Source: a virus
DNA: 38,358 bases
Virus record (IMG/VR): IMGVR_UViG_3300036804_000098
Location: 1 to 38,358 of that record
Strand: one strand, 5' to 3'
Positions 11,228 to 27,951 of this stretch are shown in pieces. Position numbers and translations under genes: made by a program. A model generated the notes under the pieces. It searched no databases, was not told the DNA's origin, and saw only the letters and a list, made by a program, of their open reading frames with translations. Each line of letters opens with the position of its first letter. The first letter of the stretch is position 1.

Positions 11228-12724
11228 TTAGCCGGCTACGACGTTCTTGCCCACGCCGCGGAAGTCGATGATGGCGCCGCCGAATACGAACTTCACCTTG
11301 TACTGGAGCTCGTCGGCCGTGAATTGTGTGCCCACCGTCGGCTGGTTGGCCAGGAAGATCTGCGGCTGCTCGATACCATCGAGGAACCCGATCTCAAGGA
11401 ACGGAGCATTCGATTGATCGGTCCCGTAGTACCAGTCCGTCACGTCGGTCCCGTCGAGCTTTTCGTTCACGACGATCCGCTCATTGTTGACGCCGAACCG
11501 CTGATAGAACGCGTTCGAGCCGGCCGTGTTGGTCTGGTTGATCTGATTGGCGGTCGCCTTCAGATGAAGGGGAACCATTAACCAGGTCAGGGGCAGGCCG
11601 AGCGGCTCGCTCGAATCCTTTTCGGTCTGCATCCCGATCGCGATTTCCGCCGCAATCAGCGCATCCTGCGACAATGCGGCCGAGCCGAGATTCGAATGAC
11701 CGGAAGCGAACCAAGCCACAGAATCCGCGCCATAGTTCGGATTGTTCAAGAAGAACCCGGTGATGTAGTTCTTCAGCGTCCACCGTCCGGCCCGCGCCAG
11801 GCGGCCGGGGAAACGCGCGATCGCGCCGAGATCATCATTGCGGATGGTCTCTTCCGAGATCGTGAGCAACTGCCCGCGCTTCGAAACCGAGTAGCTCACA
11901 CGCTCATCGGTAGGCTTCGCGAACTCCTGATAGCCGGCGCCCTCGTTCACTGTCGCCAACTCGCCGAAGTAGCCATCACGCACCCGATCCTGCAGCTTGA
12001 AATCGGAAATCGAGGCCTTTGTGTACAGCATATTCAGGCCATCAATCGACAGCTCCGCATAATCCTGGAGCAGCCGCTTGGTCATCGAGTTCAGGAGGAT
12101 ATTCGGAAAGTCGCCGGTCAACACGGCTTCGGAAGCCAGCATCCGACCACCAGTAAAACCGCCTCCGCTCAGCTTCGCCAGATCGAAATCGCCGGTGATC
12201 GTCACATAGGCATCGCGGAGACCCTTGAACCCTGGGACGCCCTTGGTCATCGATTCCTTGACGCCGATGGCCGCTTCCATGGCCAGGGCCATCTTGTCGG
12301 CGGATTCCAGGCCCACGCGCACCGGGCCGCGAATCGTGCCGACATTCTCAAAGGCCGCGAAGGCCTCGCGAACGCCCGCAATCTCGGCATCGATCGTCGC
12401 GTCGACGATATTCGCTTCGGAAGCCAGCGCCGTTTCAAGATGTGCGCGCGCCAGCTTCTTGGCCGGCTCAGGCAGCTTCGACTCGGTCAGCTTGGTCTCA
12501 ATGCGGGTGCGGGACTGCACGCGCTGCGCATCCGCCAGGATGGTTGCTGCAGCTTCGGCGGTAAGGGCTGGCGTCGCGCCGTCAGAGAGAGCGGTTGAGA
12601 CTTTCTCAAGGAAAGCCGGATAGTCAGCCTCAGCAACGTTGGCAAATTCGAGGCTCAGCTCTGCGCACCGCGCGGCGTTCTTCGCCCGAAGCGCGTTGAG
12701 CAGTTGAAGAATCGACTTCTTCAT
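11228..12724 (-). CDS. Nested scaffold-capsid product from an internal start
   Basis: In frame inside the fusion gene, an ATG at 12724 (MKKSILQLLNALRA) is preceded by AAGGAG with a five-base gap, a near-ideal ribosome site in the middle of a coding region. Its product of 498 residues would contain only the scaffold domain and the major capsid protein. Nested starts are known for phage scaffolds (lambda Nu3, Mu Z). Here the nested product would supply capsid subunits in excess over protease. The signal is seen; its use is inferred. Confidence 0.6.
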   Translation of the reverse strand: MKKSILQLLNALRAKNAARCAELSLEFANVAEADYPAFLEKVSTALSDGATPALTAEAAATILADAQRVQSRTRIETKLTESKLPEPAKKLARAHLETALASEANIVDATIDAEIAGVREAFAAFENVGTIRGPVRVGLESADKMALAMEAAIGVKESMTKGVPGFKGLRDAYVTITGDFDLAKLSGGGFTGGRMLASEAVLTGDFPNILLNSMTKRLLQDYAELSIDGLNMLYTKASISDFKLQDRVRDGYFGELATVNEGAGYQEFAKPTDERVSYSVSKRGQLLTISEETIRNDDLGAIARFPGRLARAGRWTLKNYITGFFLNNPNYGADSVAWFASGHSNLGSAALSQDALIAAEIAIGMQTEKDSSEPLGLPLTWLMVPLHLKATANQINQTNTAGSNAFYQRFGVNNERIVVNEKLDGTDVTDWYYGTDQSNAPFLEIGFLDGIEQPQIFLANQPTVGTQFTADELQYKVKFVFGGAIIDFRGVGKNVVAG

Positions 12725-13633
12725 GGATGCTCCTTCAGCAGCGATCGCTTCACTGCCGCGGTTGATGCGAGGCCTTGTGGGGGCGATCGCTTGGGATTGA
12801 GGGTTGACGGCGCGCAGCTGCGCGTCGCGAAGACTTCCGCCGGCAAATGCCGCCGCGGCGGTGAGAAACTGACCGCCGGCGCCGGCGCGCTGACAGAGAT
12901 CAACGGAATAGAGATCGCCGAGGGCTTCGGCAACCATGCACTGTTTGCCTTCGATAACACCCGCTTTGTAGCCGATCATCGCCAGCATGGACACCGCGAA
13001 GAGATCGAGCTTTTTGTTGGTGCGGGCATCATCAAGACGGGAACGAAGATCCGATTCGGCGGTGAAGAGATTCACCGTCGTGCGGGCTTCGGTTCCAACC
13101 ATGCTTCCACCGGAAAGCCAACCGGCGATGCGATCGGCAGCCAGAGCGCCCGTCGGATCCGAGCCGCTCTGATCCGGATGCCGGCGCCCGAAGGGTTTCC
13201 CATCTAGCGCTTCAGCGACGCGCGCCACGAAATCCTTCGGATAGTAATGCGGAACGGCTTTGCCATTCAGCGCGCCATTCCCCCAACCGGCCCGTAGCGC
13301 AACGATGGGATACCTTCCAGACTCGGGCTGGGCATCAGCTTCAGTCGAGAGAAATGCGCAGCTCTCGGCGACCGGAACATAGGCGGTCGTGACTTCCTGC
13401 GCATTCTCAAGTGAAACCTCATCGCCCGAAATCGCATAGGGGATGCGGAATAGCTTTCCGGTTTCCCCCTGACGGGCGATGAGGTAATCATCGAAGGCCT
13501 CGAACAGCCAGAACCGCTGGCACTGCGTCTCATCGAGACCGAACTGCTCAAGCAAGGCGCCATTAAGCAGCGCCTGTTGCTGATCGAGCGAAAGATCAGC
13601 CTCAGCCACCAAACTCCAGATCAAAGCCTTCAT
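11228..13633 (-). CDS. Prohead protease-scaffold-major capsid fusion protein
   Basis: About 801 residues. Residues 110-265 look like a prohead serine protease: a histidine in GRRHPDQSG (about 152), a serine in DLFAVSMLAM (about 215) and a following YSVDLC strand. Residues 304-430 are helical and charged like a scaffold (delta) domain. From about 440 to the end is a Mu/HK97-type major capsid domain. GGAG lies six bases before the ATG at 13633; another ATG six bases earlier has no proper spacing. In Mu these functions are split into genes I, Z and T. An internal start at 12724 is annotated separately. Catalytic residues are assigned by pattern. Confidence 0.8.
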   Translation of the reverse strand: MKALIWSLVAEADLSLDQQQALLNGALLEQFGLDETQCQRFWLFEAFDDYLIARQGETGKLFRIPYAISGDEVSLENAQEVTTAYVPVAESCAFLSTEADAQPESGRYPIVALRAGWGNGALNGKAVPHYYPKDFVARVAEALDGKPFGRRHPDQSGSDPTGALAADRIAGWLSGGSMVGTEARTTVNLFTAESDLRSRLDDARTNKKLDLFAVSMLAMIGYKAGVIEGKQCMVAEALGDLYSVDLCQRAGAGGQFLTAAAAFAGGSLRDAQLRAVNPQSQAIAPTRPRINRGSEAIAAEGASMKKSILQLLNALRAKNAARCAELSLEFANVAEADYPAFLEKVSTALSDGATPALTAEAAATILADAQRVQSRTRIETKLTESKLPEPAKKLARAHLETALASEANIVDATIDAEIAGVREAFAAFENVGTIRGPVRVGLESADKMALAMEAAIGVKESMTKGVPGFKGLRDAYVTITGDFDLAKLSGGGFTGGRMLASEAVLTGDFPNILLNSMTKRLLQDYAELSIDGLNMLYTKASISDFKLQDRVRDGYFGELATVNEGAGYQEFAKPTDERVSYSVSKRGQLLTISEETIRNDDLGAIARFPGRLARAGRWTLKNYITGFFLNNPNYGADSVAWFASGHSNLGSAALSQDALIAAEIAIGMQTEKDSSEPLGLPLTWLMVPLHLKATANQINQTNTAGSNAFYQRFGVNNERIVVNEKLDGTDVTDWYYGTDQSNAPFLEIGFLDGIEQPQIFLANQPTVGTQFTADELQYKVKFVFGGAIIDFRGVGKNVVAG

Positions 13634-13680
13634 GAACATCTCCGACGTCGTTTTGTCACTCCAACCAACTGCAGTTGAAG

Positions 13681-14127
13681 CTAGTTCGAGCCTTCCTGAA
13701 TGGCCGCGAGGATCTCGTCTTTCTTTGCGGTCGGATCTACGGTCACACCGATAGTGCCGGCATGCTGGATCAACTGATCCTTCGTCAGCTTGGTGATATC
13801 AACCGTAGACGACTTCGAGATCTCGAATGAATATTTGCGGCCGTCCGAGGTCACGCAATGTCGCCTCGCCACACCATCCTTCGTCCTGGTGGAGCGATGG
13901 ATGACCTGCCAGTCTTCGAGCGCGTCGATATCGTCGGCCGATTCCGGCGCCGGAACGGCGAGCATCTTGTTCGCTTCCTTGGTGGCGACGGTGCGCTTCG
14001 CTGATTCGTTGTCGGGGTAGTCGAGCCTCGCCTGGGCTTGCGCCTTTTGGAAGTTGGCTTGCCATTGTTTCTTGGCTTTGTCGCTCAGATGCTGTGGAGC
14101 ATCCGGAATATTCGCTACTGGAGGCAT
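13681..14127 (-). CDS. ChaB-like N-terminus with C-terminal HeH/LEM-type domain
   Basis: 148 residues in two parts. The first 60 (NIPDAPQHLSDKAKKQWQANF, then NESAKRTVATKEANKML) resemble ChaB-family proteins. The last 40 (DITKLTKDQLIQHAGTIGV, then KKDEILAAIQ) have the two-helix HeH/LEM/SAP-like pattern usual for nucleic-acid or capsid binding. It occupies the place of Mu gene G between the MuF-domain protein and protease genes. AGGAG precedes the ATG with a seven-base gap. Function is not established; a role in head assembly or genome binding is possible. Confidence 0.6.
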   Translation of the reverse strand: MPPVANIPDAPQHLSDKAKKQWQANFQKAQAQARLDYPDNESAKRTVATKEANKMLAVPAPESADDIDALEDWQVIHRSTRTKDGVARRHCVTSDGRKYSFEISKSSTVDITKLTKDQLIQHAGTIGVTVDPTAKKDEILAAIQEGSN

Positions 14128-14203
14128 AGGTATCTCCTGTGGGTTTTGCCGAGACTGACGGTTACCGGCAGATTAGTGAGTGCGCCGCAGTCCCAGCGGG
14201 AAA

Positions 14204-24470: not shown

Positions 24471-24955
24471 GTTCACGTTCGTCATCTTTTCTCGCCAGCA
24501 GCGCCGCGTCCACTGAAAATCGCGAACGAAGAATTTCAGCCCACCGGCAGCGCGGATTGTTTGATTGCGACGATGTGGCGTCTGGATCGATTAACGATGC
24601 GTCGACGATTCGCTCGATGCTGGTCGAATCGATTCGCAAGTGCGGGAAGAGCCGCGGGCAGATCGCTGACACAATGAGCCGTCTCAGCGGAACGGACGTG
24701 ACGGAACGTAAGCTCAATGCCTTCACGGCCGAGTCTCGCGGTGATGTCAGGTTTCCTCTGGAGCTCGTCAGGGCCTTTTGCATGGCCACCGGAGACTGGA
24801 CCCTTCTCCGAAATTTGATCGAGATGGCCGGTTTCCACTTCGTGACCAAGACAGAGTTCGATGTTCTCCGCCTTGGTCATGAATATCTCACGCACAAGCG
24901 GGCGGCAGAGAATATGGCGCTGCTCGAAAAACGGCTGGCTGGGGAGAAGCTATGA
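24467..24955 (+). CDS. Early regulator-like protein upstream of transposase
   Basis: 162 residues. After a Ser-rich, probably disordered first 40, the core MLVESIRKCGKSRGQIADTM, then DVTERKLNAFTAES and FPLELVRAFCMATGD, forms a helix-turn-helix-like module seen in small genes directly before transposases in several Mu-like phages. The end is a charged helix. It overlaps the transposase gene (ATGATGA). It may control early transcription; no experimental role is known to me. Confidence 0.6.
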   Translation: MSSRSSSFLASSAASTENRERRISAHRQRGLFDCDDVASGSINDASTIRSMLVESIRKCGKSRGQIADTMSRLSGTDVTERKLNAFTAESRGDVRFPLELVRAFCMATGDWTLLRNLIEMAGFHFVTKTEFDVLRLGHEYLTHKRAAENMALLEKRLAGEKL

Positions 24956-27012
24956 TGACGCCCCAACCTCAGCTCGCAATCATTTCTTCGTCCTCAGAAG
25001 AACGATGGCTTTCGGCCGCCGAGGCTGCCCAGGTAACCGGATGGAGTGATCGCTGGCTTCGACTTCAGGCATCTGCTGGAACGATTACTTCGCGACTCAG
25101 TCCTGAAGGAAGATCTTCGAACGGCAAGCCTATCCGCGAATACCTGGCATCCAGTCTCCCCTCCGCGCAATCGAGTTTGGCTATTGTCACTACTAAGCCA
25201 GCTCCGCCGGCTCCCCTCTTCACCGGCATCCCTCAGAGCCTGGAGGGTCCGCGCATTGTTCTCCCCAATGCGAAGCTGCAGGCCCAGGCCGAAAAGCGCC
25301 TGGAGTTGCTGAAGCCGATTCTTGAATTCTCCGAGAATGCGGCGCGCTTCGCGGCTCTCACCGTCAACGGCCATCCCGTCACCAGCGCCGAACGGATGAT
25401 CGAATACATTGCGGCGACGAATAACAAAACGCCACGCACCATCCAGCGCTGGCTCGCCTCTCTTCGCAGCTCGGGACCGGCAGCACTCGCCGACAAGATT
25501 CGGGCGGATAAGGGGCAGAGCCGTTGGTTCAACCGGCATCATCAGGCGGCAATCCTGACCGCCTATCTTTTTCTCAATGAGCGGATGAGCGTGACGTTCG
25601 TCTGCGAGCAGATAGAGCTTAACAGCGAGCAGCTCGGCGTCGAAGAAGACGATCTTCCCAGCCGTGAGACGGTTCGCCTCTTCTGCTCCCAGATTTCGCC
25701 GGCGATGAAAGCCCTGGCGCGAGAAGGCCAGAGGGAATATCGCGAGCGGATGTCGCCCTTCCTGACGCGCAGCTATATCGATATCTTCGCCAACCAGGTC
25801 TGGGTAGGTGACACGGCGATCCTCGACGTTGAGGCGGCCAACGATGTCTACCCCGAGCTGCCTGAGCTGGCGCCGCTCCGCCTGCGTATGACCGCCTTCG
25901 AGGATTTCCGCAGCCGAAAGATTCTCGGCGTCACATTCGCGGTCGAGGGAAGTTCGATATCGATCAGCGCGGCGATGCTGCGCGGGATTCTTCAGAACGG
26001 CCTTCCGGAAATGATCTATGTCGATAACGGCAAGGACTTCCGGAAGGTTGCGCGGAACGCGCAGCGCGGCCTGGACGTCGTGCCTCTCACCGACAAGGAC
26101 TTCGGGCCGATCGAGGAACAGGGCTTATTGGCGCGGCTGGGCATCGGCGTCACACACTGCATCCCCCGCCATCCCCAATCGAAGCACGTCGAGCGCTTCT
26201 TCCGCACCCTGCACACCCGCTTTGATCGTGTGCACTCGACCTATACCGGTGGATCGCCGGCAACCCGGCCCGATTCGACCGAACAAGCCATGATGCGGCA
26301 TCGCCGGCTTCTCAAGAAGGGCCGCGCTGAAGAGTCCAGGCATCCTTATGCCAGCCGCATCATTGCAGGTTGCCTCTCCTGGATCGAGGAGTACAACGAC
26401 CGGCCTCACCAGGGCGAAGGAATGGATGGCCGAAGCCCCAACCAGGTCTTCGCCCAGGAGTTGAACCCCAACCAGCGCCCCGCACCCGATTTCGCCAAGC
26501 TCGCCATCCTGATGGCCGAATATCAACGCCGCCAGGTGCATGAGTGCGCCATCACCCTCAATCGCCGCCGCTACACGCCCCGCAATGAGGATCGCGCGGC
26601 CTGGCATGTCATGCACGAACAGAACGAGCGGGAAGTCCTGATCGCCTTCAATCCCGCGGATTCCGATTTCGCGGTGGCGCTCGATCCGGACGGCCGTTTC
26701 CTCGCCTGGCTAGAAGTCGAGCAGAAGATTCGCTTCGCTCCCAACGATCCGGAAGTGCAGCGCCAGATCGGTGAATCGATGGATATCCGCCGCGGCCTCG
26801 AAAAGCATACGCGCACCAAGCTGAATGCAATCGAGATCGCCGCGCGCGCCAATGGCGCGAAGTCGGCCGAAGAGATGCTCTATCAACGCCTGCAGCTCCC
26901 GGCCGACGCCGCATCTGCAATCACTCACCGCAAGCCACGCCTTGCGCCAACCACAAAGCCGCCCGCACCAAAGACAGCGGCTGAAGTCGCACGCGAACTC
27001 ATGGGGGAATGA
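24952..27012 (+). CDS. MuA-like DDE transposase
   Basis: 686 residues. An N-terminal winged/HTH domain (17-68, WLSAAEAAQVTGWSDRWL) suits end or enhancer binding. A second DNA-binding region spans about 145-260 (RTIQRWLASL). The RNase H-like core carries D287 (VWVGDTAILD), D358 (IYVDNGKDF) and E414 (SKHVERFF), a full DDE triad. A Mu-type beta-barrel follows (about 510-590), then a basic tail that in Mu contacts MuB and ClpX. It joins phage ends to target DNA for integration and replicative transposition. GGGGAG lies five bases before the ATG. Apparently intact. Binding sites are probably the repeats at 37907-38123. Confidence 0.95.
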   Translation: MMTPQPQLAIISSSSEERWLSAAEAAQVTGWSDRWLRLQASAGTITSRLSPEGRSSNGKPIREYLASSLPSAQSSLAIVTTKPAPPAPLFTGIPQSLEGPRIVLPNAKLQAQAEKRLELLKPILEFSENAARFAALTVNGHPVTSAERMIEYIAATNNKTPRTIQRWLASLRSSGPAALADKIRADKGQSRWFNRHHQAAILTAYLFLNERMSVTFVCEQIELNSEQLGVEEDDLPSRETVRLFCSQISPAMKALAREGQREYRERMSPFLTRSYIDIFANQVWVGDTAILDVEAANDVYPELPELAPLRLRMTAFEDFRSRKILGVTFAVEGSSISISAAMLRGILQNGLPEMIYVDNGKDFRKVARNAQRGLDVVPLTDKDFGPIEEQGLLARLGIGVTHCIPRHPQSKHVERFFRTLHTRFDRVHSTYTGGSPATRPDSTEQAMMRHRRLLKKGRAEESRHPYASRIIAGCLSWIEEYNDRPHQGEGMDGRSPNQVFAQELNPNQRPAPDFAKLAILMAEYQRRQVHECAITLNRRRYTPRNEDRAAWHVMHEQNEREVLIAFNPADSDFAVALDPDGRFLAWLEVEQKIRFAPNDPEVQRQIGESMDIRRGLEKHTRTKLNAIEIAARANGAKSAEEMLYQRLQLPADAASAITHRKPRLAPTTKPPAPKTAAEVARELMGE

Positions 27013-27951
27013 ATGGAACCGTCGCATCGTCCGGAGGAAGTCATCGAACTGGCTAAAGCCTACCTGCAGCGCCGCGGGATGCAGTCGCAGGATTTCGCGC
27101 GCCACATCGGCTACAGCTACACCACTTTGGTCAAGTTTTTGAACAACACTTATGAGCGCAAGAATGGCTCGAAGCGGGAAGCGATCTGCGCGGCCATTCT
27201 CGATTTCATCTCCAAACATCCGATTGACGTACCTGAGGAGTTCCAGGGGAAGCTTTACGAGATCGGGAATGTGCGCGTGCTGCGCGATGTCTTTCAGCGG
27301 CTTTGTGCTGAGCCATGCATCCTGTTGAGCTATGCGCCTCCTGGAAGCGGCAAGACCGATGTTGCGCGCGCATTGATGCCTCAGTTCCGCGAGCCGGTTC
27401 CCATGCTCCGCATCTACTGCCGCGAGTCGATCACCCGGCGTGACTTGATGCAGCGCATCAGTGAGAAGTGCGGATCGGTGATTGATGGCTCGATCGAGCG
27501 CACCATCCGCAATCTGCGGTTCGATTTCCGTGGCCGCCGGGTCGCTCTCTACTTCGACGAAGCGCAGCATCTGAGCGTCGAGTGCCTGGAAACGATCCGC
27601 GAGCTCTATGACGAGCTGCGCTGGAGCCTCTGCTTGGCTGGATCCCATCAGCTCGATCGCATCTTCACCGAATGGGCTGGCGATCTGGAGCAGCTGGAGC
27701 GCCGCATCACCGACAAGATATATATCCCGTCGGTGACGGCCGAAGAGGCCGAGCAGATCATCCAGTCCGAAGTTTCGGGTCTGAATAAAGCCAAGATCCG
27801 GACCCTCATTGAGCGCTCCTATGTGCAGCTCAAGAAGGGCGAGCAGTACCTCTCCATCGGTCGCGTCATGGCCAACATCAAGGAACTCCAAAAACTGATG
27901 CCGGACGCGGATCTTGTCACTTCCATCAACGCCTCGGAGGAAATCGCATGA
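27013..27951 (+). CDS. MuB-like AAA+ ATPase, target-DNA activator
   Basis: 312 residues. An N-terminal helix-turn-helix (15-60, SQDFARHIGYSYTTLVKFLNN) precedes an AAA+ domain: Walker A APPGSGKT (108-115), Walker B ALYFDEAQ (178-185), a sensor-1-like LAGSH (209-213) and an Arg-rich ERRI segment (229-232). In Mu, MuB coats target DNA with ATP, stimulates MuA and gives target immunity. The ATG follows the transposase TGA by one base with GGGGGA upstream, so both are made together. Closer in its HTH to MuB/TniB-type ATPases than to other AAA+ proteins. Confidence 0.9.
   Translation: MEPSHRPEEVIELAKAYLQRRGMQSQDFARHIGYSYTTLVKFLNNTYERKNGSKREAICAAILDFISKHPIDVPEEFQGKLYEIGNVRVLRDVFQRLCAEPCILLSYAPPGSGKTDVARALMPQFREPVPMLRIYCRESITRRDLMQRISEKCGSVIDGSIERTIRNLRFDFRGRRVALYFDEAQHLSVECLETIRELYDELRWSLCLAGSHQLDRIFTEWAGDLEQLERRITDKIYIPSVTAEEAEQIIQSEVSGLNKAKIRTLIERSYVQLKKGEQYLSIGRVMANIKELQKLMPDADLVTSINASEEIA

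Follow-up and report, generated by a model that had tools for sequence, protein, structure and literature searches.

In phages lambda and Mu, an in-frame start inside the protease gene allows the scaffold protein to be made in excess over the protease. The lambda pair C/Nu3 and genes 5/6 of N15, where the internal start was assigned by similarity, both have such a nested scaffold together with a separate capsid gene, and lambda Nu3 lacks a strong Shine-Dalgarno (SD) sequence upstream. N15 was also considered as a possible fusion phage and rejected, its genes being separate. In Mu, the scaffold Z starts in frame inside the protease gene I behind an SD of the layout CAGGAG-9 nt-ATG, and this nested product ends before the separate capsid gene T. 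A putative internal start with an SD has also been reported in the protease-scaffold gene of PaMx73, a Mu-like phage of P. aeruginosa (PMC4378225); its capsid gene is likewise separate, and the reported internal start is a Val codon.

Genes that hold protease, scaffold, and capsid together are already known as well. Gifsy-2 has the three domains in one gene, according to the title of Effantin 2010 as cited in PMC8538268, and the same arrangement was described for MD8 (PMC8508860); NCBIfam contains the fusion models NF045540 and NF045541. The protease of Gifsy-2 and of the MD8/F10-like phages, as in NF045540, is ClpP-like. RcMamaDuck (Rhodobacter) and PBb001 (Bordetella) have the same domain order, which is also that of NF045541, with an S78/HK97-like protease. 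None of the fusion-phage records examined (Gifsy-2 and MD8/F10-like) annotates the internal start, the word "internal" is absent from the MD8 paper, and the literature searched, most of it outside subscription journals, yielded no account of such a start for a tripartite capsid gene.

Here we analyzed a tripartite head gene on the minus strand of a 38,358-nt virus sequence, IMG/VR record IMGVR_UViG_3300036804_000098 (hereafter, the window). The gene shares the nested in-frame start with lambda, N15, and Mu, and putatively with PaMx73, and its SD has the same layout as that of Mu Z. In contrast to all four, the capsid is fused on, so that the nested product is a scaffold-capsid protein. A further difference from Mu is that Pfam did not detect Mu-like_Pro in the window protein. 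A preliminary description of the locus had set it against Mu as a phage with separate protease/scaffold and capsid genes; this holds for the capsid gene T but needs correction for the scaffold, because Z starts within gene I.

A fusion gene with two probable translation starts

The features of the locus, all on the minus strand, are as follows.

11228..13633, minus strand: gene fusing protease, scaffold, and major capsid, 801 codons and a stop (ORF, Pfam, and AlphaFold2 domain pattern)
13640..13643, minus strand: GGAG, the SD serving the full-length start ATG 13633 at a distance of 6 nt, duplex -6.6 kcal/mol
12890..13633, minus strand: protease part, residues 1-248 (AlphaFold2), with a predicted T4 gp21/herpesvirus assemblin fold at residues 99-249
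13178..13180, minus strand: codon of the candidate catalytic histidine H152, invariant in relatives
12989..12991, minus strand: codon of the candidate catalytic serine S215, invariant in relatives
12725..12889, minus strand: linker, residues 249-303, mostly predicted to be disordered, holding the internal SD
12730..12735, minus strand: internal SD AAGGAG, spacing 5 to the internal ATG
11228..12724, minus strand: nested scaffold-capsid ORF, 498 residues, with its ATG in 22/22 relatives and a synonymous-constraint peak
12128..12724, minus strand: helical scaffold part, residues 304-502 (AlphaFold2)
12128..12130, minus strand: codon of E502, proposed as the P1 residue in a capsid maturation cleavage E502/A503
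11231..12127, minus strand: mature capsid part, residues 503-801, HK97 fold (Pfam, Foldseek)

Counted from its first ATG, the ORF spans 13639..11228 on the minus strand (803 codons). The ATG at 13633 is the better start according to the SD-anti-SD duplex, as no usable SD was found for the ATG at 13639 (duplex 0.0). The reverse complement of positions 12720-12740 reads GAAGGAGCATCC-ATG, and the ATG at 12724-12722 is in frame with the fusion gene; the internal start, its AAGGAG five bases upstream, and the 498-codon length had been given correctly to the base in the preliminary description. The duplex of the internal SD (-8.0 kcal/mol) is comparable to those of the other gene starts of this sequence, which lie between -6.9 and -9.3 except for a single outlier at -2.9. 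Directly upstream of the fusion gene, positions 13681-14127 (minus strand) encode a 148-residue protein without a Pfam match, the C-terminal part of which weakly matches several PHROGs.

The window contains the gene pair of a Mu-like transposable phage, a Mu A-type transposase (phrog_310, E 1.2e-79) and a B protein (phrog_296, E 8.5e-34), at positions 24952-27948. These two genes lie on the plus strand and the head genes on the minus strand, unlike in Mu, where the genes run in a single direction.

Domain organization of the fusion protein

The proposal that a single gene of about 800 codons holds protease, scaffold, and capsid is borne out by the ORF, the Phage_capsid_4 match, and the blocks of the AlphaFold2 models, so that a protease fold, a helical middle, and an HK97-fold capsid are found in one reading frame. 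The full-length model, built from 29 sequences with a moderate mean pLDDT of 69, is beta-rich up to residue 248, of low confidence at approximately 249-301, helical at 302-480, and again of low confidence at 485-502 before the capsid. Within the linker, pLDDT is mostly below 50 at residues 249-270 and 287-301, and M304, the first residue of the nested product, stands at the beginning of the first predicted scaffold helix, after the disordered linker.

A separate model of residues 1-272 (23 sequences, mean pLDDT 76) was closest to T4 gp21 (5jbl; Z 9.6, 133 residues, rmsd 3.7), followed by herpesvirus proteases with Z 7-8. Foldseek again placed T4 gp21 and the herpesvirus proteases on top for the protease model, weakly (E 4.5e-3). 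Support for a predicted T4 gp21/herpesvirus assemblin-type fold is moderate, because the protease part gave no sequence-level match to any solved protease. The candidate catalytic residues H152 and S215, already named in the preliminary description, are invariant both in 29 relatives, down to approximately 30% identity, and in the 23-sequence set. Five relatives (L004, L016, L026, L027, and L035) carry approximately 80 extra N-terminal residues before the protease, which are absent from the window gene; this stretch contains a motif like P-A/S-S-D-F-x-Y-V-G-D and, in the two relatives tested, matched no Pfam family above threshold.

The capsid part matches Phage_capsid_4 at residues 503-796 (E 1.9e-32), the full model matches HK97-fold capsids in Foldseek, and a weak sequence match connects this part to Mu-gpT-type capsid structures. 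Residue 502 is E in 29/29 aligned relatives and lies at the end of the low-confidence linker adjoining the capsid domain, making E502 the leading candidate for the site of maturation cleavage. Of the NCBIfam fusion models, NF045541 (scaf_prot_MCP2) scored 177.9 bits against a curated cut-off of 525, with the match limited to residues 360-799, and NF045540 (ClpP-like, MCP1) scored 148 bits, below its cut-off of 475; no ClpP match was found in the window fusion protein with Pfam. Since these models match only the scaffold-capsid part, far below cut-off, the window gene represents a divergent branch.

Conservation of the internal start

Relatives of the fusion gene were collected from IMG/VR (34 sequences, reduced to 22 distinct ones at <97% identity; median nucleotide identity 0.71). 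The linker had no DNA-level relatives in cultured phages, and the host search revealed no close relatives in the bacterial genomes scanned. The internal ATG is invariant in all 22 distinct relatives, and AAGGAG is kept in 21 of them; in the exception, L035, the Gly codon is missing, yet GAGG is found at a spacing of 5. In L016, CAA replaces GAA (E300 to Q) and AAGGAG is unchanged. The residues between the SD and the ATG differ in kind and number, and one-codon insertions keep the spacing at 5 or 8. Both elements persist to approximately 65% nucleotide identity within the family.

Codon usage at the SD is equally distinctive. The Gly301 codon is GGA in 21/21 sequences, a codon that accounts for 13% of Gly codons family-wide, and the runner-up among 48 conserved Gly columns has GGA in 9/22. 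An SD core precedes 22/22 internal starts versus 43/272 other in-frame ATGs (Fisher 1.5e-16); because the sequences are related and kinship was not corrected for, this p-value, like the other family counts and Fisher p-values, overstates independence. In the conserved columns lying up to 12 codons from the start, synonymous homogeneity was 0.82, compared to no more than 0.56 in other 25-codon windows. Relatives of lambda C/Nu3 are 97-99% identical as proteins, too close to serve as a control, and the constraint test thus stands without an experimentally verified positive control. The codons at 12686-12700 (residues 312-316) show a further feature that exceeds what the SD explains, with CTC, GCG, and CGG nearly fixed in the 22 relatives.

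A conserved in-frame start with an SD is therefore located at the protease-scaffold boundary, and the nucleotide comparisons indicate that this start is under nucleotide-level selection.

Internal starts in other fusion families

The Mae-JY22 group, named for a Microcystis phage, provides eight distant relatives at approximately 30% identity that have a homologous ATG and SD core. L050 (2899-4854), a relative of this group, lacks the first scaffold helix region and shows no clear SD at the corresponding position. Families resembling Gifsy-2, RcMamaDuck, and PBb001 were tested together with their IMG/VR relatives. In the Gifsy-2-like family (ClpP protease), the SD core was found at 35/35 internal starts versus 21/830 other in-frame ATGs, and in the RcMamaDuck-like family (S78) at 66/66 versus 36/564. 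For the PBb001-like family (S78), a more lenient test that sought the start within 13 codons gave an ATG in 33/36 genes and an SD core in 27/36, with 39/478 for other ATGs. Altogether, start and SD were present in 136 of 145 genes from four other fusion families with ClpP-like, S78-like, or unassigned proteases, compared to an SD at 3-13% of other internal ATGs in those families; nine PBb001-like genes, and in addition L050, had no clear start with an SD at the expected place.

The families differ in how the start is preserved. In the RcMamaDuck family, the SD can begin in any codon phase (0, 1, or 2), and 17 different residue strings are encoded by it, a variability that constraint on the protein hardly accounts for; this family, in which few residues are conserved at the start, shows no synonymous-constraint peak there. 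Most SDs of the Gifsy-2-like family are short (AGGA) and have a long spacing of 10 nt, and constraint at the start is the maximum of the gene in both 25- and 41-codon windows. A second, unexplained synonymous-constraint peak of this family lies in the ClpP-like domain (residues 79-93 of L059).

The tripartite genes of Gifsy-2 and the MD8/F10-like phages also have a conserved internal SD and ATG. Most cultured fusion phages have a candidate start approximately 165-225 residues before the capsid match, often among the strongest of the gene; Paracoccus phage Pben1 was an exception, with no prominent start in this region. In the separate-gene phages Epona and Dulem 34, the capsid gene begins 225 and 210 residues before the capsid domain, respectively, a position comparable to that of the internal starts. 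By duplex, F10 has its stronger SD at the gene start, and the two SDs are about equal in Gifsy-2 and RcMamaDuck, so that the dominant product cannot be read from SD strength alone. Product amounts also depend on the structure of the start region, on coupling, and on upstream translation.

Alternative explanations of the conserved start

The conserved stretch could be a protein feature only, such as a linker cleavage site E/GA at which no ribosome starts. Its AxE/(G/A) motif does resemble E/A sites elsewhere in the protein, and Glu is common at position 300. What is conserved, however, is the nucleotides, including GAA in 20/21 sequences next to the rare GGA; L016 has exchanged the Glu and L035 lacks the Gly while each retains an SD, the residues of the RcMamaDuck family vary freely around a persisting SD, and other in-frame ATGs rarely have one. 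A pure cleavage site is therefore very unlikely. We consider it highly improbable that the start is instead a functionless relic of a separate scaffold-capsid gene fused to a protease gene. A fusion origin is plausible, given the comparable position at which the capsid gene of separate-gene phages begins, but a relic should decay, whereas the SD and ATG have persisted across indels and amino-acid changes down to the most diverged members of the family, and synonymous constraint at the start is the highest of the gene.

An internal transcript, separate from a common mRNA, could also be the source of the short protein; the sequence is compatible with it, and phage promoters can differ from sigma-70 promoters. 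Such a promoter would still need the SD and start, and no sigma-70-like site was found on the minus strand at 12500-14200, leaving this explanation no more probable than the relic. The least probable of these explanations is that the constraint mainly reflects RNA structure or a protease/scaffold recombination junction, with the SD incidental. The reach of the constraint to codons 312-316 and the pairing of GAGC with GCTC in many single-sequence folds speak for it. The folding energy, on the other hand, is ordinary compared to synonymous resampling (mean z -0.16), the alignment fold contains no pairing between the SD and downstream codons and little covariation, and a junction gives no account of an SD in all codon phases in the RcMamaDuck family. 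An RNA hairpin hiding the internal SD, as suggested by single folds, was rejected on the same grounds, with support from neither resampling nor alignment folding.

Proposed mechanism and implications

Use of the internal ATG at 12724 by ribosomes is strongly supported by the comparative evidence, and additional shell protein lacking the protease is very probably produced from the internal SD. We regard it as highly likely that one mRNA yields two nested head proteins, a minority full-length form carrying the protease, in a ratio set by the two starts. Ribosomes initiating at 13633 would produce the full-length protease-scaffold-capsid protein of 801 aa, and those initiating at the internal AAGGAG/ATG would produce scaffold-capsid alone (498 aa). 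The two products share assembly parts and are thus expected to co-assemble; the full-length minority form would bring the protease into the procapsid through its own capsid domain, and the internal product would supply most shell subunits. The protease would then cut scaffold from capsid, most likely at the putative site E502/A503, so that every subunit would end as the same capsid protein of approximately 299 residues.

The suggestion that the protease-to-capsid ratio is set by translation is thus the best-supported reading, given the three domains and the nucleotide-level selection. We infer the actual ratio, in which the short product would be the majority, and take the ratio to be the purpose of the internal start. 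Beyond this gene, tailed-phage genes that fuse protease, scaffold, and capsid probably contain in general, irrespective of the protease fold, an unannotated nested scaffold-capsid start with its own ribosome-binding site, so that the two starts of a single mRNA would set the protease dose of the procapsid. The window gene alone combines two known devices; of greater interest is that the arrangement recurs across fusion families.

A protease made 1:1 with every capsid subunit would amount to hundreds of copies per procapsid, which seems hard to fit or to control. The conserved internal start would resolve this problem: the otherwise puzzling fusion would be a simple means of setting dosage, on the pattern of lambda and Mu but with the capsid itself included. 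If this is true, the annotations of fusion capsid genes omit a nested product, which ought to be added to proteomics searches, and the stop between protease and scaffold-capsid can be lost provided that the second start survives.
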